Shown one piece after another: positions 18,516 through 48,817 of a stretch of 64,000 nucleotides of DNA. The stretch covers positions 2,976,001 to 3,040,000 of the forward strand of contig NZ_CP125370.1 of the NCBI RefSeq assembly GCF_030034735.1. Reading direction: 5' to 3'. Below the pieces are notes generated by a model, which saw nothing but the letters and a program-made list of their open reading frames with translations, was not told where the DNA came from and made no database searches. How positions within the stretch are numbered: the first letter of the stretch is position 1; every line of letters begins with the position of its first letter. A program made the translations under genes and the position numbers. Origin of the DNA: Paenibacillus sp. RC334 (GTDB lineage Bacteria; Bacillota; Bacilli; Paenibacillales; Paenibacillaceae).

Positions 18516-18537
18516 AAGATATGTACCTCCTCTGTTA

Positions 18538-18735
18538 TGCCTGCGAAGTTAGCTGTCGGATTCGGACTCAGGAGAAGCCCTATGCTTTTGTGCAATTCAC
18601 CCCTAGGCAACCTTCCATCCATTCGTATGAAGACGGATCAGAAGTTACTGCCGTTGTTACGTCCCCCGCACTTCCCATGGTTTTGGGTCCCGCATTCAGC
18701 GTCTGTCGTAGCTGTCTGCTGCCCCGGTAAGTTTT
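18538..18735 (-). promoter_or_regulatory. ydaO-yuaA riboswitch (cyclic-di-AMP)
   Basis: The minus-strand leader of the LysM-3D gene carries the conserved ydaO core: GGGGTGAA, then CATAGGGCTTCTC, then CCGAATCCGACAGCTAACTT and CGCAGGC, ending about 15 bases before the ribosome-binding site. The upstream half with CGGGACCCAA fits the other side of the fold. Known members bind cyclic-di-AMP and switch off wall-hydrolase and osmolyte-uptake genes. The 5' boundary is approximate. Confidence 0.88.
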
Positions 18736-36449: not shown

Positions 36450-37742
36450 TTATTTATCTACTTGACAGGGGGATAGTTCCACGGATAAAATCCGGTCAAA
36501 AAGACCAAAGACTTCTTCTGAATCGTAAAGATTCTCCAATACGCTGACCTCCATCATTAAACGTCCCGAAAGTGTAGCCGTTGTGAGCAATAACGACTGG
36601 TTTTTGATGGAAAAATAGATGGTGTCCACCCATTCTTCTATAATCGGATACGATATGATTCCCAGATTGGACAAGGTGATGGTAAAATTCCACAGGGGGG
36701 ATCTTTCAGGCATTGTTTTCATAACCAATTCAAGACACTGTTGTTTATATTTCCGATATGAATTGGAAAACGAAGCAAAAAAGAGCGACAACGCATAGGG
36801 AACCCCCCTTTTGAACCATTTGAACGCGGATTTCATCTGTTTTTCCAAATTTCCATCCCGAAAAAATTGCATTGGAAGGCTTGCGACGTAATTACCGTGC
36901 ATAGTTTCCGGCGAGTAGTTATGCAGAAAACTCAAATCCATAGGCATGGAGACAAACACGCGTTGCTTGCCGGGAGCATGCTGCAGTAGTCCATCAGTCA
37001 TTCGATAACAGATGTATTCGGTTAATGTCATTTTTAGGCTTCGGCATCGTCTTAAAATCTCACTAGTCTCCTCTTTGCTGAATCTATACGATTTTTTGAC
37101 ATAACCACCGCCTTGCTCCGGCCTTCTGCCGTAACTTAAATCAACGGTTTCGCCAGCGCCTGTCCCTTTTCCCCTAACCCTGGACATAAAACCTGCAACA
37201 AAAACCGGCATCCACATAAAAGCGGAAAATCTTCTTTTCATACGCAACAGCCTGTCTTTGGAGACGTCGCCCTTTGCCGCCTTATTTTCCGGCTCGGAAT
37301 CTGGTTCGCCTGAGTAATATTCCAGCCATCTCTTGATCCAGAAAACCAAGCTCAGCCCATTAGCCACCGCATGGTTCATCGCAAATATCATTGTATATTC
37401 ATTTATAGGGTAAATACGAAACGGAAGTCTGGCATTGGTCGGGCTGTACTGAGCCAGTACCTCTTCCTCCGTAAAATATTGGGAAAGCTTCACCTTTTCA
37501 GCCTCCAGAAAATGTTCCAGCTCTTCCTGAGAAAAACGCCCCCATACAAACGTGTCTTTTTCGAATTGTTCCACCCTTTTGGCTTGCAGCAAAGGATTGT
37601 CCATGATGAGCGAGCGGTAGCTGGAAAACAATTTTTCAGCGTCGATTCTTCTTTTAAAAGTAACCGTTGCGATCATGCTGTTGGATAAAATATAATCTTC
37701 AGTTCCAAAAAAGTAAGTGCTTGCCAATTTAATGGCATCCAT
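36450..37742 (-). CDS. Condensation-like acyltransferase encoded with the NRPS
   Basis: Protein of 430 residues with the fold pattern of condensation-domain/CoA-dependent acyltransferases (alcohol acetyltransferase, PapA and wax-synthase groups). The core motif HHxxxDG is represented by MNHAVANGLSL (about residue 124-134): His is kept, Asp is replaced by Asn. Flanking segments LPFRIYPINEY before it and WNFTITLSNLG near residue 350 (the second signature, D/N-F-x-x) also fit. It starts 28 bases after the NRPS stop with AAGGAG nine bases before the ATG, so one operon. A reasonable role is transfer of an acyl group to an alcohol or amine of the NRPS product. Whether it is catalytic with Asn in place of Asp needs testing. 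No membrane segment other than a hydrophobic stretch near residue 175. Confidence 0.65.
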   Translation of the reverse strand: MDAIKLASTYFFGTEDYILSNSMIATVTFKRRIDAEKLFSSYRSLIMDNPLLQAKRVEQFEKDTFVWGRFSQEELEHFLEAEKVKLSQYFTEEEVLAQYSPTNARLPFRIYPINEYTMIFAMNHAVANGLSLVFWIKRWLEYYSGEPDSEPENKAAKGDVSKDRLLRMKRRFSAFMWMPVFVAGFMSRVRGKGTGAGETVDLSYGRRPEQGGGYVKKSYRFSKEETSEILRRCRSLKMTLTEYICYRMTDGLLQHAPGKQRVFVSMPMDLSFLHNYSPETMHGNYVASLPMQFFRDGNLEKQMKSAFKWFKRGVPYALSLFFASFSNSYRKYKQQCLELVMKTMPERSPLWNFTITLSNLGIISYPIIEEWVDTIYFSIKNQSLLLTTATLSGRLMMEVSVLENLYDSEEVFGLFDRILSVELSPCQVDK

Positions 37743-37770
37743 TTTTCCCCGCTCCTTCCCTTCTATTCTT

Positions 37771-40700
37771 TTACATAAACTCTACTTTTTTGACATGATC
37801 CATCATCAGCTTCACTTTTTGACTGTCCAGCCTGGACCACTCAAACCCCAGCTCCTGCAAAATACCGTCAGTCTTCTTGTTCATCGTCATGAACAACGTT
37901 TTGCTTGCTCCCTCAAAGAAGACGTTGGAATGAACAAGAATCCTGGCAACCTCCTGCGCTGTCTCCGGTTCATCGTATTTTTCAAACATGTATTCGGTAA
38001 AATCCTCCACTGGCATCGGCTTTACATTTATATCCGCCTGCTTCAAAAGCTTGGCAAAAGATATCATGCTAACCTGATGGCTGTTAAACAGATGATAGGT
38101 TTCGTTGATTAGATTTTTCCGGTCGAATAGGAGTACAACTGCCTTGGCCACCTCATCCACAAAGGAGAAGTTCATGGTTTTATCTTGAATTGCGGGTAAT
38201 CGGCCAAGTTTGATCATCGACTTTACCAACGAATAAAATGCATTATCCGAAATATTTTCCTGGAAGATCCCCGAATTGGAATCAAACACGAGGTTCCCGA
38301 CCCTGAACACATTGGAATCAAGCCCTTCTTCCCTTGCTCTTACAATCTCTTTCTCGGCTTCGAGCTTTGTCATAACGTAATAGTTATCAGAGCTTTGCTC
38401 GACATTGCAATCATATTCAGTGAACATGATGCTGCTCTGGTCTTCTATCCAGCCGCTACCTACGCTGGTGGTGGAAACGAAATTGTAGGTCTTTTTCTTC
38501 CCTGTGCCAGCAAATTTGATCAGTCTTTCGTTCCCTTCCACATTGACCGCCTGAAATTCCGAGTAATGCCCAAAATGCTTCACATTTGCCGCCGAGTTAA
38601 TGATCGCATCAATGCTTCCGGCCAAATCCTCATAGCGCTCCCGGCTCAGTCCAAAGTAGTCCTGGGTTAAGTCTCCACAAAACACGCACACTCTGTCTTC
38701 CCAGGCCTTCTCCCCATCAAGCTCAAGGCCAAAATGGAACTTCAGCTTCGCCCACAGTCTTTCCAGCGCCTCATCGTCACTCGTTCCCCGAACAGGTACA
38801 TACACCTTATATTCCGTATTTTGCAGCAATTGGAACAAAATATGGATTCCCAGATACCCTGTTCCTCCTACCAGCAGAACATTACGGTAGTCAGCCCGTT
38901 CAGAAAGATCGATGTTTTCATAACCCTGATTTTTCTTCCGGTATTCTTTGAGACTCTCGCGCATTTTCCAGACAACACCAGGTACGCCGTTTTCTCCGGA
39001 AGCTGCCACTTCCCGTAAGGCGTACACGAATTGTTTTAATCTGTCTTTGGAATACTTAATGTTATCCGCCAAGGCCCGAATCGTCGGATATTGAAAGATG
39101 TCGTTAATGCCCACTTCAAAATCCAGCGCCAGCCTCGAAACCACCTGAATCGCCTTGATCGAATTGCCACCCAGTCTAAAGAAATGCTCATCAATTCCGA
39201 TCGACTCTATGCCGAGAATCTCCTGCCATACCTTCTGGATTTTCAAATCAACGTCATTTCTTGGGCTGCTGACTGTGTGGTCGCTTCCCTGCCATTCAGG
39301 CTCGGGCAATGCCTTCCTGTCAATTTTCCCGCTCGGAGTCATCGGCATGTCATCCAGCTGCATAAAGCTGGACGGCACCATATAATCAGGCAACTCCTGC
39401 ATAAGCTGTTCCCGCAGCTCTTCCACTCCCGGTTCGCCCTCTGCTGTAAAATACGCCGCCAGATATTTCTCGCCTTGCTTGTCTTCCCTCGCGATCACCG
39501 CTACCTCCCGGACAAGCGGATGCTTCATTAGCTGCGCTTCGATTTCACCCAGCTCAATGCGGAAGCCCCGAATTTTCACCTGATCGTCGATTCTTCCCAA
39601 AAATTCGATATTCCCGTCCGGCAGCCAACGCACCAGATCGCCTGTCCGGTACAGCTTCTCTCCAGCTTCGTAAGGATTCGCCACAAACTTCTCCGCCGTT
39701 AGCTCTGGCCGGTGCAGATATCCCCTGGCCAATCCGTCTCCCGCAATGCACATTTCCCCGGCTGCTCCCAGCGGTAGCAGCTTTTGATGTGTGTCCATAA
39801 TGTAAATTCGAGTATTGGCAATCGGTTTGCCAATCGGTACCGATGGATACCCCATATCCTCTTCCCGGTACCTCCACGCGGTTGCAATTACACTTGATTC
39901 GCTCGGACCATAGGCATTCATATACTTCACGCTGTCCTTCCACCGCGTAACCAGCCCTTTGGTAATCGCTGATCCGCCTGTCACCAGTTTTTTCAGCGTC
40001 GGCAGTCTGTCCGGCTCAATCCCTGCCAGATAAGTAGGCGGAAGCAGTGCAATCGTAATTTGGTTTTCATTCATGAAGCGTGCAAATTCGTTCAGATTAT
40101 TAATAATATCCCGCGAAACCAGATACAGCGTTCCGCCTCCCAGCAAAATCGTGAACACTTCCCAGACCGAGGCATCAAACGAGCTGCTGGCAAACTGCAG
40201 CATCCGGTCCGATCCGTCCACGCCCCATTGTTCCTGGAAGAAATGCTGGAGGTTGATGATTCCCCGGTGTTCTACCATGACCCCTTTGGGTTTCCCCGTA
40301 GATCCCGAGGTATAAATGATATAAGCCAAATCCTCCGGCTTGTTAACAGGCTCCAGATTGGCACGGTCTAGCTCTTTATGCTTCAGGCTTTCGTCATCCA
40401 AATCCATGACTGTCCCGTGATAGGTGAGCTTGTCCCGGAGATGCTTTTGCGTCAGTAAAATGGACGCGCCGCTGTCCTCCAGCATATAGTGAATCCGTTC
40501 CTCCGGATAATTCGGATCTATCGGCAGGTAGGCTCCGCCCGCTTTGAGTGTTCCCAGGATGCCGATGACCATTTCCATGGAACGCTCCGCCATGATGGCA
40601 ACGATATCATCCGGCTTCACTCCCCGCTCTCTCAAGACTGTAGCCAGCCGATTCGCCTGCTCGTTCAGCTCCCGGTAGGTCAGCGTTTGCTCTCCCCAGA

Positions 40701-43700
40701 CCAAAGCCGGATGATCTGCTCTTTGCTCCGCTCGTTCCTCAAACAGTCCCTGAATCGTGTGATCCTTTGGATATTCCGCCTCCGTGCGGTTAAAATCACG
40801 GAGCTGCACGCTGCTCTCTTCCTCCGGTACGATCTCGATATCTTCGATCCTCATCTTTGGACAACGGATGATTTCACGGATGATCATTTTAATCTGCCCG
40901 GCTACCCGCTCCATAAAGCTTCTGTCATAGGCCAAGCTATTGTAGCGGAATTTGATCTGCAGATCGTTCTCAGGCACAACAATGAAATTAAAATCAAAAT
41001 TTGTCTGTTCGGAAACCTTCGTGGACAGTACCCTCAAATCTGTTCCGTGGTCGCCCTGTCCTTTGACAGCTTCCTCTATCGGATAGTTTTCAAAGGCCAG
41101 CAGGTTTTGCACCAATCCGCCTCCATAGGCGGTCCTCGACTGAATTTCCGCCAGCGGATAATAGTGATGCCGCTCCGATGCCCATGCCTCCTGCTGAAGT
41201 TTGGCAACCAGGGCTGAAAAGCTTTCTTCCTTTTCTGCCCGGACTCTGACAGGAATCGTATTGATAAACAGTCCTACCATCTGTTCAACGCCTTGAATTT
41301 CTGCCGGTCTTCCCGAGACAACCGTTCCGAACACCACATCCTGGGTATTGTTGTACCGTTGCAGCAGGATTCCCCATACGGCCTGTATCACCGTACTTAA
41401 CGTGGCGCCACTTTCTCTTGCGATTCCCTCCAAACTCTCCTTCATTTCCCTATTTATCGTAAAATCGTATTCTTCCTGAATGTATCCCGGATGAGCTATA
41501 CCACTTTTGATTTTAGGCAACAGCGCTGGCTGTTCGTACTCTGTCAGATAATTCTCCCAGTAAGCCCCCGTCTCCCGGTCATCCCTTTGTTCCAGCCACT
41601 GGATATATTGACGATAAGGATACACTGTGCCTAATTGCGGTATGCTTCCTTTATGAAGAGCACTGTGAATTTCCAGCAGCTCTTTAAATACAATGCCAAG
41701 ACACCATCCATCTATAATGATATGATGAAAACTCAAAATGAAACGATAGCTGTCGGCATTAATTCTAATCAAGGCAAATCTGATCAGCGGCTCCCGGGTG
41801 AGGTCAAAGCTCTTTTCTCTATCCTTGTCCAAATAGGCTTGGAGATAGTTTTCTTTCTCTTCCTCTGTTAAGAAGGAGATATACTCGAAAAACATTTCAG
41901 CTGGTCTGTCCTCTAAAACGACCTGAACCGGTTTTTCCACCTTCTCATAAACAAAGGCAGTCCGCAAAATATCATGTCTTTGAATCACCTGCTGGAAAGC
42001 ACGTTCAAACAAGCTTCTATCGATTTCGCCCTTCAGACTGATCACTGCTTGTTCAAAATACGCGTGCGAGTTTTGCTCCCTGAGGAAGTGGTAGAGCATT
42101 CCCGACTGCATAGGGGTCAGTGTATAAATATCCGCGATATTGGGCTTAGAGTCCCCCATCGCGCGATATACCTCTTCTACCTCCGCCGTCGTAATGTTGC
42201 TGGAACTTACATCACTGGCTGTCAGTTCCGTATATTCCTGTGATGAGCAATGCTCGATAATTTGCTCCAGATTTCGCTTAAAGCCTTCCGCCACTGTGAT
42301 CAGCGTGGCCTTTTCATATTCGTGCTTGTGATAGGCGAAACTCATCCTTAGTTTTCCATCAGCCACCCTTCCGTTAATGTCCAAGCAGTAAGGTCTTTGC
42401 ATGTCGGGTGAAACCGTCTCATCGGTAAGAACATCGGAGATGGTAAATATGTCGGTATCGATATCCTGGTCAAACTGCCCCAGGTAGTTGAAGCTGATCT
42501 CAGGGTGCAAATTAAACCTTAAGATTTCCTCGTCCCGAGGGAACGTCTGGTATTTTAAAATGCCGTAGCCGATGCCTTTTTGCGGAATGCGCCGGAGGCT
42601 TTCTTTGACGGCTTTAAGCCGGGAAGACACGTCCTTGACACCTGCCATATCCAAAATCACAGGGTATTGGGCGGTAAACCAGCCTACGGTTCTGCTGATA
42701 TCCATATCCTGAATGATTTCTTCACGTCCGTGCCCTTCCAGGTTAACAAGCACCTTGTCTTCTCCTGTCCATTCCCGAATAGCCTCTCCCAATGCCGTCA
42801 AAAGAACATCGTTGATTTCAGTATTGTAAGCCTTATTCACTTCTCTAAGCAGTTTGGCGGTTTGGACTTCATCCAGCACGATTTCGATATGATCGCTATC
42901 CATATATGTTCTGCCATGAACGAGATGATCCTTGGGAATAGGCTTGATTTCATTCTGTTCCAGCGCGGACCAGTATGTGATTTCTTGGAGAAGCTCCCCG
43001 CTGCCGGCATACGTATAAAGTTGTTCAGACCATGCCAGGAAAGAGTCCGTTTTCCCTCTGAATGTGACTTCTTCCCCCTTCTCCGCCTGTCGGTATCCTG
43101 TAGAAATATCCTCAAAAAGAATCCGCCAAGAAATCCCGTCAACCACCAGGTGGTGAATACTTACGCACAGATAGTCACCGTCTTTCGTTTTGAACAAGCC
43201 TGCTTGCATCAGAGGTCCACATTCTAAATCCATGCGGGACTGAAGCAGGGCGGCTTCTTCCTTTACGGAGCTATCATATATATCATCATTTGTAAAATCC
43301 TTTACCTCCAGCGAATATAGTTCGCCTTCCGTGCCCCGGTTGAACAGAACCACCTGTCCCGCCTTCTCACGCACTACAATACGCAAAGCATCATGGTGTT
43401 CCACCAAACGATCGAACACCTTTCTTAACATCCTTTCGTCAAACCCCTGTTTCCTATGTAACAGAACGGACTGGTTGAAGTGATGTTTTGCTGCAAAAGA
43501 CTGCTCAAAAAACCAGCTTTGGATGGGCGTGAGCATGATTTCCCCTGTTACCATTCCTTGAAAAGCAGTATGTTCGACAGATTGTACATAGGCTCTCAAT
43601 TGTTCAATCACAGGATGGTCAAATAGATCCTTCAGTTGCAGCTTTAGCTTATAATCGTGAAGCTTGGACACGATCTGGATGGCTTTAATAGAATCTCCCC

Positions 43701-46692
43701 CCAGATTCAGAAAATGATCCTTAATGCCTACCCGTTCGACTTTCAGGACTTTTTCCCATATTTCAGCCAATATCTCCTCTATTTTGTCTCTCGGAGCTGC
43801 ATATTCCTCCGTTGCATTCACGGTCAGATCGGGCTCGGGCAATGCTTTTCGGTCATTCTTTCCACTCGGAGTCATCGGCATGTCATCCAGCTGCATAAAG
43901 CTGGACGGCACCATATAATCAGGCAGCTCCTGCATAAGCTGTTCCCGCAGCTCTTCCACTCCCGGTTCGCCCTCTGCTGTAAAATACGCCGCCAGATACT
44001 TCTCGCCTTGCTTGTCTTCCCTCGCGATCACCGCTATCTCCCGGACAAGCGGATGCTTCATTAGCTGCGCTTCGATTTCACCCAGCTCAATGCGGAAGCC
44101 CCGAATTTTCACCTGATCGTCGATTCTTCCCAAAAATTCGATATTCCCGTCCGGCAGCCAACGCACCAGATCGCCTGTCCGGTACAGCTTCTCTCCAGCT
44201 TCGTAAGGATTCGCCACAAACTTCTCCGCCGTCAGCTCCGGCCGGTGCAGATATCCCCTGGCCAATCCGTCTCCTGCAATGCACATTTCCCCGGCTGCTC
44301 CCAGCGGTAGCAGCTTTTGATGTGTGTCCATAATGTAAATTCGAGTATTGGCAATCGGTTTGCCAATCGGTACCGATGGATACCCCATATCCTCTTCCCG
44401 GTACGTCCACGCGGTTGCAATTACGCTCGATTCGCTCGGACCATAGGCGTTCATATATTCCACGCTGTCCTTCCACCGCATAACCAGCTCTTTGGTAATC
44501 GATGATCCGCCTGTCACCAGTTTTTTCAGCGTCGGCAGCCTGTCCGGCTCAATCCCTGCCAGATAGGTAGGCGGAAGCAGTGCAATCGTAATTTGGTTTT
44601 CATTCATGAAGCGTGCAAATTCGTTCAGATTATTAATAATATCCCGCGAAACCAGATACAACGTTCCGCCTCCCAGCAAAATCGTGAACATTTCCCAGAC
44701 CGAGGCATCAAACGAGCTGCTGGCAAACTGCAGCATCCGGTCCGATCCGTCCACGCCCCATTGTTCCTGGAAAAATTGCCGGAGGTTGATGATTCCCCGG
44801 TGTTCTACCATGACCCCTTTGGGTTTCCCCGTGGAACCCGAGGTATAGATGATATAAGCCAAATCCGTCGGCTTGTTAACAGGCTCCAGATTGGCACGGT
44901 CTAGTTCTATATGCCTTAGGCTTTCGCCATCCAAATCCATGATCGGTCCGTGATAGGTGAGCTTGTCCCGGAGATGCTTTTGCGTCAGTAAAATGGACGC
45001 TCCGCTGTCCTCCAGCATATAGTGAATCCGTTCCTCCGGATAATTCGGATCTATCGGCAGGTAGGCTCCGCCCGCTTTGAGTGTTCCCAGGATGCCGATG
45101 ACCATTTCCATGGAACGCTCCGCCATGATGGCGATGATATCATCTGGCTTCACTCCCCGCTCTCTCAAGACTGTAGCCAGCTGATTCGCCTGCTCGTTCA
45201 GCTCCCAGTAGGTCAGCGTTTGCTCTCCCCAGACTAAAGCCGGGTGATCTGCTCTTTGCTCCGCTCGTTTCTCAAACAACCCGTGGATCGTTTGATCCTT
45301 CGGATATTCCGCCTCCGTATGGTTAAAACCGCGAACTAGCGTACTCCTTTCTTCCTCTGGCACGATTTCGATTTGCGAAATAAGAGTTTCACTTTGCTCC
45401 ATGACTTGAGCAAATAAATATTCAAAGTGGGAGATAACGTTCTCAATGGGGATGAATCTTTCAAAAGCCTGTATCTGATAGTCAAAATTAACGGCTACAT
45501 CCGCTTCACCTTCTTGTCCCCATATCAGGAGATTGAGTGCATTTCTTTCATGATGATGCGGCATACTTACAATCCGGCTTGCTGCGCCGATCAATGCTTC
45601 TCTCGTTTCCTGTTCTTCGAAAGAAAGCGATATATCAAACAGTTTGCCTTTCTCATTGCTATTCTCGTAAACCGCCCGGTAAATTTCACCGAAAGACATT
45701 TTCTGATGTCGATAGCATTGCATAAGCTCACGTTTGATGCTCTTAATCAGTTCTTTGAAGCTTATATCTTTCTCGGGGCTGATCCGCAGCGGCAGCACGT
45801 TGGCGAAATGTCCCATAGTCTGCTTATATTTCGCTTTGCTCCGATTAAAAACCGGGACGCCGATCACCATTTCGGTCCGATTGCAAATCTTGCTGAAATA
45901 CAGGAACAGTATGCCTAAAAAATAGTGGAACGACGAGCATCCTTCCTCTTTGCAAAATTCAATCATTTGATTGTATAACGCCTTGTTTATAGTTAAGGTT
46001 CGCCGAGCACTCCAAACGGAATCACCGTCACCATCATCGATATCCATGCCTCTGCTAAACAGAGGCTCGGGAATGGTCAGATATTTGTTCTGCCAGAACG
46101 CCCTGTCTTTTAAAAAGGCCGGAGAATTCAGATAATTCTGATTATCGGAAATAAAATCAGCATAGGAATAGACCGTTCTGTTCATTTCGCCAATTCCTTG
46201 CACCAATTTATTGTAATTGTCAAACATTTGACTGATTAAGAGAGCAAATCCCCATCCGTCGATCACCAAATGATGAACTTTAAGTAAAATGAAGTATGTG
46301 TTCGGGGCACCTTTCAACAAAACAAATTGAAAATAGCAGTCCTCTGGTTGAAAAGGTTTTAAAAACTCATTTTTCATCCAGTTGATGCAAAAAGAGTTTG
46401 GGTTTTCCTTCACCGAGAAATCATGAAACGGAACTTCATAGTCAGCTTCCGGCAGAAATGTTAAATAAGGCTCTCCCTTTTTATCAATAAAACGGGCACT
46501 CAGAGAATCATTTTGTCTGATTAACAACTGCATGGACTGGCTAATGATAGCGGTATTCAGGTTTCCTTTAACCTCAACATACCCACCAATATTGTAAATG
46601 GGCTTCCCAGGGTACATGCACTGTTCGAACCATATATCTTTCTGATAGGAACTTAACGGATACTCCTTGACACTTATTACGCTCGTTTGCAT
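37771..46692 (-). CDS. Two-module NRPS, C-A-PCP-E-C-A-PCP-R, reductive release
   Basis: Non-ribosomal peptide synthetase of 2973 residues. Domains: C1 about 10-430 (HHLVIDG, His pair 140-141); A1 about 455-960 (FDASVWE, Asp662); PCP1 with Ser1001 in GGDSI; epimerisation about 1060-1500 (HHLVVDGIS, His 1180-1181, and EGHGRE); C2 about 1530-1970 (HHIIIDGW, 1656-1657); A2 about 1990-2470 (Asp2173); PCP2 with Ser2511 in GGNSI; thioester reductase about 2600-2973 (GGTGYLG, Tyr2772-x3-Lys2776). Pocket residues read DAWLVGAVIK by eye in both A domains, nearest to Leu-like or other hydrophobic codes. The C domain in first position suggests an N-acylated start; E gives a D-residue; the reductase releases aldehyde or alcohol. 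There is no thioesterase, PPTase or exporter gene nearby. Start ATG follows AGGAGGG. Expected product: capped D-,L-dipeptide aldehyde/alcohol; unnamed. Confidence 0.93.
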   Translation of the reverse strand: MQTSVISVKEYPLSSYQKDIWFEQCMYPGKPIYNIGGYVEVKGNLNTAIISQSMQLLIRQNDSLSARFIDKKGEPYLTFLPEADYEVPFHDFSVKENPNSFCINWMKNEFLKPFQPEDCYFQFVLLKGAPNTYFILLKVHHLVIDGWGFALLISQMFDNYNKLVQGIGEMNRTVYSYADFISDNQNYLNSPAFLKDRAFWQNKYLTIPEPLFSRGMDIDDGDGDSVWSARRTLTINKALYNQMIEFCKEEGCSSFHYFLGILFLYFSKICNRTEMVIGVPVFNRSKAKYKQTMGHFANVLPLRISPEKDISFKELIKSIKRELMQCYRHQKMSFGEIYRAVYENSNEKGKLFDISLSFEEQETREALIGAASRIVSMPHHHERNALNLLIWGQEGEADVAVNFDYQIQAFERFIPIENVISHFEYLFAQVMEQSETLISQIEIVPEEERSTLVRGFNHTEAEYPKDQTIHGLFEKRAEQRADHPALVWGEQTLTYWELNEQANQLATVLRERGVKPDDIIAIMAERSMEMVIGILGTLKAGGAYLPIDPNYPEERIHYMLEDSGASILLTQKHLRDKLTYHGPIMDLDGESLRHIELDRANLEPVNKPTDLAYIIYTSGSTGKPKGVMVEHRGIINLRQFFQEQWGVDGSDRMLQFASSSFDASVWEMFTILLGGGTLYLVSRDIINNLNEFARFMNENQITIALLPPTYLAGIEPDRLPTLKKLVTGGSSITKELVMRWKDSVEYMNAYGPSESSVIATAWTYREEDMGYPSVPIGKPIANTRIYIMDTHQKLLPLGAAGEMCIAGDGLARGYLHRPELTAEKFVANPYEAGEKLYRTGDLVRWLPDGNIEFLGRIDDQVKIRGFRIELGEIEAQLMKHPLVREIAVIAREDKQGEKYLAAYFTAEGEPGVEELREQLMQELPDYMVPSSFMQLDDMPMTPSGKNDRKALPEPDLTVNATEEYAAPRDKIEEILAEIWEKVLKVERVGIKDHFLNLGGDSIKAIQIVSKLHDYKLKLQLKDLFDHPVIEQLRAYVQSVEHTAFQGMVTGEIMLTPIQSWFFEQSFAAKHHFNQSVLLHRKQGFDERMLRKVFDRLVEHHDALRIVVREKAGQVVLFNRGTEGELYSLEVKDFTNDDIYDSSVKEEAALLQSRMDLECGPLMQAGLFKTKDGDYLCVSIHHLVVDGISWRILFEDISTGYRQAEKGEEVTFRGKTDSFLAWSEQLYTYAGSGELLQEITYWSALEQNEIKPIPKDHLVHGRTYMDSDHIEIVLDEVQTAKLLREVNKAYNTEINDVLLTALGEAIREWTGEDKVLVNLEGHGREEIIQDMDISRTVGWFTAQYPVILDMAGVKDVSSRLKAVKESLRRIPQKGIGYGILKYQTFPRDEEILRFNLHPEISFNYLGQFDQDIDTDIFTISDVLTDETVSPDMQRPYCLDINGRVADGKLRMSFAYHKHEYEKATLITVAEGFKRNLEQIIEHCSSQEYTELTASDVSSSNITTAEVEEVYRAMGDSKPNIADIYTLTPMQSGMLYHFLREQNSHAYFEQAVISLKGEIDRSLFERAFQQVIQRHDILRTAFVYEKVEKPVQVVLEDRPAEMFFEYISFLTEEEKENYLQAYLDKDREKSFDLTREPLIRFALIRINADSYRFILSFHHIIIDGWCLGIVFKELLEIHSALHKGSIPQLGTVYPYRQYIQWLEQRDDRETGAYWENYLTEYEQPALLPKIKSGIAHPGYIQEEYDFTINREMKESLEGIARESGATLSTVIQAVWGILLQRYNNTQDVVFGTVVSGRPAEIQGVEQMVGLFINTIPVRVRAEKEESFSALVAKLQQEAWASERHHYYPLAEIQSRTAYGGGLVQNLLAFENYPIEEAVKGQGDHGTDLRVLSTKVSEQTNFDFNFIVVPENDLQIKFRYNSLAYDRSFMERVAGQIKMIIREIIRCPKMRIEDIEIVPEEESSVQLRDFNRTEAEYPKDHTIQGLFEERAEQRADHPALVWGEQTLTYRELNEQANRLATVLRERGVKPDDIVAIMAERSMEMVIGILGTLKAGGAYLPIDPNYPEERIHYMLEDSGASILLTQKHLRDKLTYHGTVMDLDDESLKHKELDRANLEPVNKPEDLAYIIYTSGSTGKPKGVMVEHRGIINLQHFFQEQWGVDGSDRMLQFASSSFDASVWEVFTILLGGGTLYLVSRDIINNLNEFARFMNENQITIALLPPTYLAGIEPDRLPTLKKLVTGGSAITKGLVTRWKDSVKYMNAYGPSESSVIATAWRYREEDMGYPSVPIGKPIANTRIYIMDTHQKLLPLGAAGEMCIAGDGLARGYLHRPELTAEKFVANPYEAGEKLYRTGDLVRWLPDGNIEFLGRIDDQVKIRGFRIELGEIEAQLMKHPLVREVAVIAREDKQGEKYLAAYFTAEGEPGVEELREQLMQELPDYMVPSSFMQLDDMPMTPSGKIDRKALPEPEWQGSDHTVSSPRNDVDLKIQKVWQEILGIESIGIDEHFFRLGGNSIKAIQVVSRLALDFEVGINDIFQYPTIRALADNIKYSKDRLKQFVYALREVAASGENGVPGVVWKMRESLKEYRKKNQGYENIDLSERADYRNVLLVGGTGYLGIHILFQLLQNTEYKVYVPVRGTSDDEALERLWAKLKFHFGLELDGEKAWEDRVCVFCGDLTQDYFGLSRERYEDLAGSIDAIINSAANVKHFGHYSEFQAVNVEGNERLIKFAGTGKKKTYNFVSTTSVGSGWIEDQSSIMFTEYDCNVEQSSDNYYVMTKLEAEKEIVRAREEGLDSNVFRVGNLVFDSNSGIFQENISDNAFYSLVKSMIKLGRLPAIQDKTMNFSFVDEVAKAVVLLFDRKNLINETYHLFNSHQVSMISFAKLLKQADINVKPMPVEDFTEYMFEKYDEPETAQEVARILVHSNVFFEGASKTLFMTMNKKTDGILQELGFEWSRLDSQKVKLMMDHVKKVEFM
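39298..40795 (-). repeat. Internal direct repeat of the NRPS, copy in A2
   Basis: About 1.5 kb of the second adenylation domain is nearly identical, base for base, to 43831-45328 of the first, at an offset of 4533 bases (1511 codons). Synonymous positions match too over long stretches. Boundaries are approximate. Confidence 0.9.
43831..45328 (-). repeat. Internal direct repeat of the NRPS, copy in A1
   Basis: Partner of the repeat in A2. Differences cluster at the ends and at scattered single bases, as expected from recent duplication or gene conversion. A short-read assembly could collapse or mis-join these copies. Confidence 0.9.
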
Positions 46693-46766: not shown

Positions 46767-46815
46767 GAAGCCTGTTCCCATATAAAAGCACAGGAACAGA
46801 CAGCAGACTTCACCC
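46767..46815 (-). promoter_or_regulatory. Terminator-like hairpin in NRPS leader (possible attenuator)
   Basis: Minus strand forms GAAG ... CTGTTCC / GGAACAG-G-CTTC with an inner loop, followed by TTTTATTT, about 75 bases upstream of the NRPS start. That is the shape of a rho-independent terminator inside a leader, so expression may be controlled by read-through. No T-box sequence is visible. Confidence 0.5.
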
Positions 46816-47446: not shown

Positions 47447-48457
47447 TTACTTCGATCTCAGCACCTGGTTGGAAACGTGGCTGACCATCTCAATCTCACC
47501 GGCTGTCAAGGTAAACTGCATCGCCTTCACATTTTCCTCGGCATGATGTACTTTTGAAGCCCCAGGTATCGCAAATACGTTCTCTCCATGAGCGTTAATC
47601 AGCCAATTCAGGGCAATCTGCGTTGGCGTCACATTATATTGTTGAGCCAGCTGTTCCAATGTTTCAATCAGCGGCTTCGATCTCCGCAGCCCCGAATCCC
47701 GGAATGCCGCTGTCCACTTGCGCGGGCCCTTGATCGACTTGACCAGAGAAGGATTTTTATGGAATTTTCCACTTAAGATCCCCTGCATTAACGGAGAGTA
47801 TGCGATGATTGCCACGCCGAGCTCTTTGGCCGTATCCAGAATTCCGTTCTGTTCGATTCTCCGGTCGAGTAGGCTGTATTTCACTTGATTCGAAACTAGG
47901 CGAAGGCCGTGCTCACGCAGCACACGATCAGATTCACGTATTTGTTGCGCGGAAAAGTTGCTTACGCCCACATATTTAATCTTTCCTTGCCCAACCAGTT
48001 TAGCCATCGCATTCATCACGGCGCCAACCGAAGCAAAGGAGTAAGGCGAATGCACCTGGTAGAGGTGAATTGTCCGTTGATCCAAATGGCGAATACGTTC
48101 ATCAATCGTTGCTGTGATACTGCCTGCGGTGCGAAAGGCCGGCCACCATTTCGTAGCGATATTCGCCTGTTCTGCGAGCGGTCCTCCGATCTCATTCAGC
48201 GTGCCCGCCAGTAGCTGTTCAGACTGTCCGCCACCGTATGCTTCAGCGGTATCAAACCAATTAATTCCACCTTCTAAACTGGTCTGTACGATTTGCCGTA
48301 TATCCTCCCGCCGCAGCACCGGCCAGAATTTCCCGACTATCCCTTTTCCATTGCTGAACTGCCAGCACCCAAGCCCAAGCGGTGACAGCTTTAAATCCGA
48401 GTTGCCCAGCTTGCGTAATTGCAGTGAGCCTGCTACATTTACCGTTTTCTCTTCCAC
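47447..48457 (-). CDS. Aldo/keto reductase
   Basis: NADP-dependent aldo/keto reductase with a TIM-barrel fold, cytoplasmic, about 336 residues. The tetrad is visible: Asp in NWFDTAEAYGGG, the Tyr in AYGGG, Lys in IATKWWP, and His in LYQVHSPY. The C-terminal NADPH-binding part FAIPGASKVHHAEEN is also typical. Start is uncertain: I use the GTG at 48457 (first residues VEEKTVNVAG), near GATGGAAGG; an upstream ATG at 48511 would add 18 residues but starts inside a palindrome. It lies upstream of the NRPS on the same strand, with its own terminator; it could reduce a peptide aldehyde, but nothing ties it to the cluster. Family call is firm. Confidence 0.9.
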   Translation of the reverse strand: MEEKTVNVAGSLQLRKLGNSDLKLSPLGLGCWQFSNGKGIVGKFWPVLRREDIRQIVQTSLEGGINWFDTAEAYGGGQSEQLLAGTLNEIGGPLAEQANIATKWWPAFRTAGSITATIDERIRHLDQRTIHLYQVHSPYSFASVGAVMNAMAKLVGQGKIKYVGVSNFSAQQIRESDRVLREHGLRLVSNQVKYSLLDRRIEQNGILDTAKELGVAIIAYSPLMQGILSGKFHKNPSLVKSIKGPRKWTAAFRDSGLRRSKPLIETLEQLAQQYNVTPTQIALNWLINAHGENVFAIPGASKVHHAEENVKAMQFTLTAGEIEMVSHVSNQVLRSK

Positions 48458-48817
48458 GATCCTTCCATCATCTCCTTTAAAAAAGTTTTCATGTGAAGCG
48501 ATCGCGTTCACGTTTTAAACACATAACACAACTTTACTTCCTGATTTGCACAGTCCGCTAAGGGAAGTTTTTTGAACGCTATGCATAGAGTTCGCTTTAT
48601 AAACTACCTAGAAAAAATACTTTTGCATAACCCTTATTTGTTTTATCGGTTGGAAGCTTACAAATGTTTAATAAAATGTTATACAAGCATCTGTTATGGG
48701 GAATTTTGGGGTACGGAACATAAAAAAAGATGACTCCTGATGAATTCAGAAATCATCTGATGACAGCTAAAAAGGCCTTCTTTTTCAATCTGTCGAAAAT
48801 CATACTCTGTACCTGTA
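48458..48817. other. Intergenic region between topB and aldo/keto reductase
   Basis: About 360 bases. Contains a 19-base imperfect palindrome at 48493-48511 (GTGAA arms around GCGATCGC) that could be an operator of the reductase, and the terminator of topB at 48722-48758. No gene is seen. Confidence 0.55.
48722..48758 (-). terminator. Probable terminator of topB
   Basis: Six-pair stem AGATGA/TCATCT with a 18-base loop, followed on the minus strand by seven T. It lies about 60 bases after the topB stop; a short AAAAAGG-CCT-TCTTTTT palindrome lies between. Confidence 0.6.

Follow-up and report, generated by a model that had tools for sequence, protein, structure and literature searches.

The window, that is, the whole stretch of 64,000 nt of DNA analysed here, carries on its minus strand a set of three genes that belong together, as judged from their linkage and their joint loss: an aldo/keto reductase (AKR, 354 aa, 47447..48511, PF00248 with 1.5e-62), a two-module non-ribosomal peptide synthetase (NRPS) of 2973 aa with the domain order C-A-T-E-C-A-T-R (37771..46692), recognised by its open reading frame, Pfam matches and motifs, and a putative stand-alone condensation-like protein of 430 aa (AT, 36450..37742), classified by profile comparison with C and E domains. 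We estimate at about 50% the probability that the three genes as a whole constitute a pathway leading to an esterified N-acyl-dipeptide alcohol. The window genome (G000) is that of a Paenibacillus placed near P. terrae and consists of a single contig of 5.98 Mb. An initial annotation of this DNA had described the NRPS and AT reading frames, separated by 28 bases (37743-37770), and both were found again with the same ends. As an account of the cluster it was right for these two genes and incomplete for the rest: it lacked the AKR gene, which is the next one upstream of the NRPS at a distance of 754 bp, and the NRPS leader, in which a terminator-like hairpin with 13 pairs and a T-rich tail is located (46770..46801, minus strand). 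Neither an acyl-CoA ligase nor a PPTase was found among the ten window genes scanned with Pfam.

Pfam divided the NRPS into three Condensation, two AMP-binding, two PP-binding and one NAD_binding_4 stretches, within which we set the domain boundaries ourselves. In the order of translation, and all on the minus strand, these domains are C1 (45337..46671), a condensation domain of starter type according to the tree and PDB matches and predicted to carry out N-acylation; A1 (43828..45309); the carrier domain T1 with LGGDS (43588..43809); the epimerisation domain E (42223..43560), assigned by tree and motifs; C2 (40807..42141), placed by the tree; A2 (39283..40755), read by pocket alignment; the carrier domain T2 with LGGNS (39049..39261); and the thioester reductase R (37789..39015), which matches PF07993 with 6.5e-48 and contains GGTGYLG and YxxxK. 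The motifs of C1, C2, T1, T2 and R are all present, and 6vtj (2.7e-40) was among the PDB matches of R. The presence of C/A/T modules and of a terminal R domain with its nucleotide-binding and YxxxK motifs marks the protein as an NRPS with predicted reductive release. The domain order and the reductase end given in the initial annotation were thus borne out by Pfam, motifs, PDB matches and tree.

The tree comprised 70 C and E domains from the window genome and related loci, leaving out pieces shorter than 330 residues, and its reference labels were our own, E domains being those with their best match to the window E and the others being named by their place in the synthetase. The middle Condensation stretch, which carries HHLVVDGISW and EGHGRE, grouped with 18 E domains of the window genome (support 100/100), and C2 stood beside 16 DCL domains (92/52) inside a group supported at 100/97 that includes one unlabelled domain, in agreement with the D-residue that had been proposed. 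The seven C1 rows fell with three starter domains (100/99) and apart from 11 LCL domains, as expected if the chain begins with an acyl group; this comparison holds only three starters, labelled by place, and because long branches lead to C1 and to the starters, about which the tree program issued a warning, the placement is good but not final. The nearest PDB sequence to C1 was TycC (2jgp, 6.8e-27), while CDA synthetase I (4jn3), which we take to be a starter domain, matched with 9.2e-22; these matches on their own would not settle the type of C1. The ORF and Pfam scan of the region upstream of C1 found no NRPS module, the AKR gene lying there instead, which agrees with the initial annotation. 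With C1 among the starters and no module upstream, the NRPS fits the lipo-initiation class, and N-acylation of its product is predicted.

Pocket positions of the A domains, which we assume to be correctly placed by GrsA numbering, gave the same letters, DAW-LVG-AVI, in A1 and A2 of the window genome and of three relatives (G007, G032 and G017), and they were also read in G197. Our literature search found no paper with this code. The NRPS-3 described in PMC7829367, which is taken here as the window locus, is listed in Table 3 of that paper with the prediction D-X(Phe/Trp)+X(Phe/Trp). A1 and A2 would therefore perhaps load the same hydrophobic, Phe/Trp-like residue.

Results also showed that A1 and A2 have been homogenised within genomes. 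The two domains are 95.5, 99.2, 96.3 and 95.7% identical to each other in G000, G007, G032 and G017, whereas the window A1 shares 94.3, 92.7 and 74.0% of its residues with its counterparts in G007, G032 and G017, respectively, an excess of within-genome over between-genome identity that is small for the window alone. Synonymous distances between A1 and A2 within these four genomes were 0.11, 0.03, 0.09 and 0.17, compared with 0.21, 0.41 and 1.62 between the window and G007, G032 and G017. The likeness begins near residues 455/1966, in the C-A linker, and ends sharply near 955/2466, at the A-T junction, and T1 and T2 are only ~36-38% alike. With more likeness within genomes than between them, the pattern is compatible with gene conversion or with whole A domains having been exchanged repeatedly.

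Neither Pfam nor NCBIfam gave a match to AT at E 0.01, and raising the threshold to E 10 gave chance-level matches only (one Pfam hit and PDB hits). Comparison with hhalign of an AT profile of nine rows with 12 C/E domains gave a score of 39.3, with a probability of 43 and P 2.5e-4, against at most 24.3 for 100 column shuffles, at most 21.2 for four unrelated families (AKR, regulator, MFS and topoisomerase) and 12.3 for the reversed profile. The alignment pairs NHAVANG of AT with HHxxxDG, and GNYVASLPM with GHFANVLPL of C1, and residues N123, H124, A125, N128 and G129 are invariant in all nine rows. The canonical HHxxxDG or HxxxD motif was not found in AT, in which the His is kept and the Asp is replaced by Asn in nine of nine sequences; since Asn stands where C domains have Asp, the reaction of AT may differ from theirs. 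The profile thus points to a condensation-like protein, as had been noted, with a score far above the shuffles though a probability of just 43%, and we propose that it is an O-acyltransferase.

A search of 394 genomes of the family with the nine-row AT profile matched 14, nine with full-length and three (G226, G196 and G199) with partial proteins; the two weak matches that complete the count coincide with HHxxxDG stretches of ORFs 3479 and 2077 aa long and are probably C domains. In an evenly drawn sample of 398 genomes of the class, AT matched only in the window's own genome, and one out of 72,556 plasmid records matched. Among named relatives, AT is present in P. maysiensis, P. ottowii and two strains classified as P. 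terrae, one of the carriers having only part of it.

We located ten NRPS loci, namely those of the window, G006, G007, G015, G017, G032, G061, G066, G197 and the pHD03 record of Paenibacillus sp. IHB B 3084; these are mostly close kin, and AKR, NRPS and AT occur together in all ten, with the AT gene 3′ of the NRPS in every case, the one-module form described below included. AKR, whose motifs FDTAEAYG, ATKW and YQVHSP presumably hold the catalytic residues, is found at an identity of at least 76% in eight of 149 relatives, exactly the eight with AT, while the best match in the remaining genomes of the genus reached E 1.1e-41 and 36% (G047). In G017, whose AKR is divergent, and in G197, AKR and AT still flank the NRPS, although the other flanking genes of the window (HAD, regulator, MFS and topoisomerase) do not occur in the 20 kb fetched. 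The loci of G061 and G015 are split over contigs, with AKR on the piece that holds C1 and AT on the piece that holds R. Proteins 57-72% identical to AKR are present in 15 genomes of other genera, and in the five such loci examined, over 20 kb each, nothing matching this NRPS or AT lay nearby, so this type of AKR has other uses as well. An R domain together with a linked stand-alone reductase gene, the arrangement known from linear gramicidin, is therefore common to the ten loci, and we propose AKR as a second reductase that would convert an aldehyde into an alcohol.

Between AKR and NRPS, eight out of ten loci (G066, G007, G006, IHB, G032, G197, G061 and G015) contain a c-di-GMP-I riboswitch aptamer (RF01051) with scores of 71.0-75.7 bits, the gathering threshold being 35. 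A riboswitch search in 75 genomes of the genus likewise placed an NRPS-linked copy in G006, G007, G015, G032, G061 and G066 and none at that position in G000 and G017. The G017 leader has no aptamer at the gathering threshold, and the window leader has no RF01051 aptamer either at gathering or with Rfam up to E 10. Some other sensor in the window leader was also considered and rejected, Rfam to E 10 having given only three chance-level matches. In the relatives, a terminator hairpin lies 3′ of the aptamer, roughly 90-110 nt ahead of the NRPS start. As the terminator scan of the window found 12 such sites overall against 12.6 in shuffles, and thus no excess, support for the window hairpin comes from its recurrence in the leaders of relatives; comparison with them suggests that the window kept the hairpin and lost the aptamer.

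In seven of seven leaders (G066 left out), the strand 3′ of the aptamer has two potential partners, P1, which it could close, and the terminator's 5′ arm, to which it can bind with energies of -7.8 to -14.0 kcal/mol for which no shuffled control was run. This alternative pairing suggests that c-di-GMP would turn the NRPS off. Speaking against such an OFF switch are the higher stability of the terminators by themselves (-16.5 to -21.2), a P1 pairing of low stability (-4.5 to -6.4) and free folding, which shows no single consistent switch.

Three genomes without the NRPS retain remnants of AKR and AT side by side: in G226, AKR continues to residue 235 and is followed by AT from residue 178, and the corresponding junctions are 79 and 181 in G196 and 116 and 401 in G199. 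Thus, the NRPS was deleted three times with differing breakpoints, and AKR and AT were damaged along with it. Where the NRPS is kept, its frame is open in G007 and G032 as in the window, and also in G017, where it contains a run of N; a true deletion of A1 in G017 was rejected, since the gap is this run of N in the assembly. The NRPS of G061 is split over two contigs that jointly hold the domains, and three contigs of G015 hold C1, E-C2, part of A2, T2 and R, the domains looked for there. In G006 and G066 (L024 and L022) and in IHB (L098), the frame changes or part of it is missing, which may reflect assembly or sequencing errors or real decay. Because the window and G017 lack the aptamer and the frames of G006, G066 and IHB are broken, loss or silencing of the pathway may be frequent. 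In comparisons of the window with G007, G032, G017 or G197, dN/dS of the NRPS domains ranged from 0.07 to 0.24 where dS was measurable, and T2 shows no amino-acid change between the window and G007.

The G197 genome, from another genus, carries a one-module C-A-T-R gene of 1468 aa with AKR in front and AT behind. Its T domain is T2-like (87%), and an A1-A2 crossover would produce precisely such a gene. An assembly collapse is not favoured as an explanation, the best match to E-C2 elsewhere in that genome being 51%, and loss of a contig from the assembly is a possible cause. The AKR and R trees leave the branch order of G197 and G017 unsettled; we favour module loss only because G197 stands closer than G017 to the window in every domain compared as well as in AT and AKR.

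All of the chemistry that we propose, from every substrate to the order of the reductions, the reaction of AT and the sign of the switch, we infer from sequence. C1 would attach a fatty acyl group taken from primary metabolism to residue 1, the two A domains would load one and the same hydrophobic amino acid, E would turn residue 1 into its D form and C2 would join D to L. R would then release the N-acyl-dipeptide as an aldehyde, AKR would reduce it to the alcohol and AT would esterify the alcohol; in most of the relatives found, a c-di-GMP-I riboswitch and a terminator, perhaps acting as an OFF switch, stand ahead of the NRPS. Most likely, the product would be an N-acyl-D-X-L-X alcohol (X perhaps Phe or Trp) esterified by AT, rather than a free aldehyde. 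The initial annotation had left a choice between an aldehyde and an esterified alcohol, and the inheritance of AKR with the NRPS tips this choice towards the latter and makes the former less probable. An N-acyl-D-X-L-X aldehyde, acting as a protease inhibitor, could still be the end product if AKR served for self-protection or turnover and AT had some other role: R matches the R domain of AusA, which we take to be an aldehyde former, with 4.9e-28, and two-module NRPSs that make aldehydes exist. Yet a dedicated AKR would consume the aldehyde, and AKR and AT are both kept with the NRPS in the ten loci and damaged with it in three more genomes, and we consider this outcome unlikely.

It is more doubtful still that R alone makes the alcohol by a four-electron reduction, with AKR supplying or modifying a precursor and AT esterifying as before. 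The strict linkage of AKR would then be left without a clear reason, even though R matches MxaA, presumably an alcohol former, with 1.3e-24. Several R domains do give alcohols directly (PMC2835699). We give an equally low probability to the idea that AT, instead of O-acylating a finished alcohol, is responsible for loading the acyl starter or links two chains through an ester or imine. Its condensation-like profile would suit such a role, and in asperphenamate the ester bond is formed by ApmB (PMC7843940), but C1 is already a domain of starter type and the AT gene follows the NRPS in all ten loci, including the one with the one-module form. For the esterified N-acyl-dipeptide alcohol, which we continue to prefer, a fuller version is tentative: a c-di-GMP-switched pathway to a small bacterial lipid of a new type, an N-acyl-D-aryl-L-aryl-dipeptide alcohol to which a divergent condensation-like enzyme, having Asn in its active-site motif, would add a further acyl group in ester linkage; in another genus, recombination between the two A domains would have cut the product to an N-acyl-amino-alcohol ester.

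Among known systems, AusA resembles the window NRPS in having two modules that end in R, and the NCBIfam AusA model matches residues 1519-2965 with a total score below its cut-off. AusA presumably has neither a starter C nor an E domain, and we assume that its free amine cyclises to a pyrazinone; cyclisation of this type is unlikely in the window product because an N-acyl cap would prevent it. The linear gramicidin synthetase is, as we understand it, much longer and begins with a formyl group, and we know of no acyltransferase in it, whereas the window system has two modules, a starter C domain and AT. The likeness to LgrD/LgrE lies in a terminal R domain combined with a separately encoded reductase, and LgrE is reported to carry out the reduction from aldehyde to alcohol (cited in PMC2835699). 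Against a role of two reductases, PMC2835699 itself counts the gramicidin R domain among sole alcohol makers and records no second LgrE-like domain. Natural N-acyl-dipeptide alcohol acetates include aurantiamide acetate and the cordyceamides, and, as with asperphenamate (ApmA/ApmB), aurantiamide acetate is an N-acyl aromatic amino alcohol made by reduction and then esterified (PMC7843940). Asperphenamate and aurantiamide acetate are fungal or plant products with a benzoyl group, their likeness to the predicted window product is one of chemistry, and the asperphenamate ester is made by a second NRPS where the window has a stand-alone AT.

The initial statement that no such pathway had been described was nearly right, since PMC7829367 (2021) includes the locus under the name NRPS-3 and gives no product for it: it is reported from plasmid pHD03 of Paenibacillus sp. 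IHB B 3084 and also from two cave strains, with no known cluster assigned, and five unassigned NRPSs together are 44-71% alike to paenibacterin, paenilipoheptin, pelgipeptin and tridecaptin synthetases. The passages of that paper covered here make no mention of reductase release, AKR, AT or riboswitch, and the word "reductase" is absent from the main text. The 37 of 61 kb of pHD03 that we examined hold AKR, this NRPS (95.8% over 2906 aa) and AT. A literature search, outside which most subscription journals and MIBiG lay, found neither the AKR-NRPS-AT unit nor its riboswitch, recurrent loss or homogenised A domains described. The locus provides a compact candidate pathway, open to testing, by which soil bacteria would make acylated dipeptide alcohols or esters, the riboswitch of its relatives ties an NRPS to c-di-GMP, and the natural edges of A-domain exchange and the natural one-module form are informative for cutting and rejoining NRPSs.

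Several further observations were made in and around these loci. In the pHD03 record (L098, NZ_CP013206.1), gltD, topoisomerase, AKR, NRPS, AT, HAD, regulator and MFS genes follow one another in the same order as in the window, and this "plasmid" record may be a piece of chromosome. Outside the NRPS locus, the window genome has c-di-GMP-I sites at G000:C1:354684-354888 and 1218551-1218631, comprising a tandem pair before a transglutaminase-like ORF and a single copy before a GH26/PA14 ORF, and the window contains a c-di-AMP riboswitch aptamer (RF00379, 59.6 bits) at 18523-18698 on the minus strand. An ORF of ~1250 aa with an R domain ~30-33% identical to that of the window recurs across the genus, for example at G000:C1:2066853-2067968 (minus strand). 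In other genera of the Paenibacillaceae (L060-L065, L067 and L069-L071), ORFs of ~2250-2335 aa have the order A-T-C-A-T-R with an R domain 38-43% identical to the window R, and the two that were checked both start with a condensation domain of which just the C-terminal portion is present.
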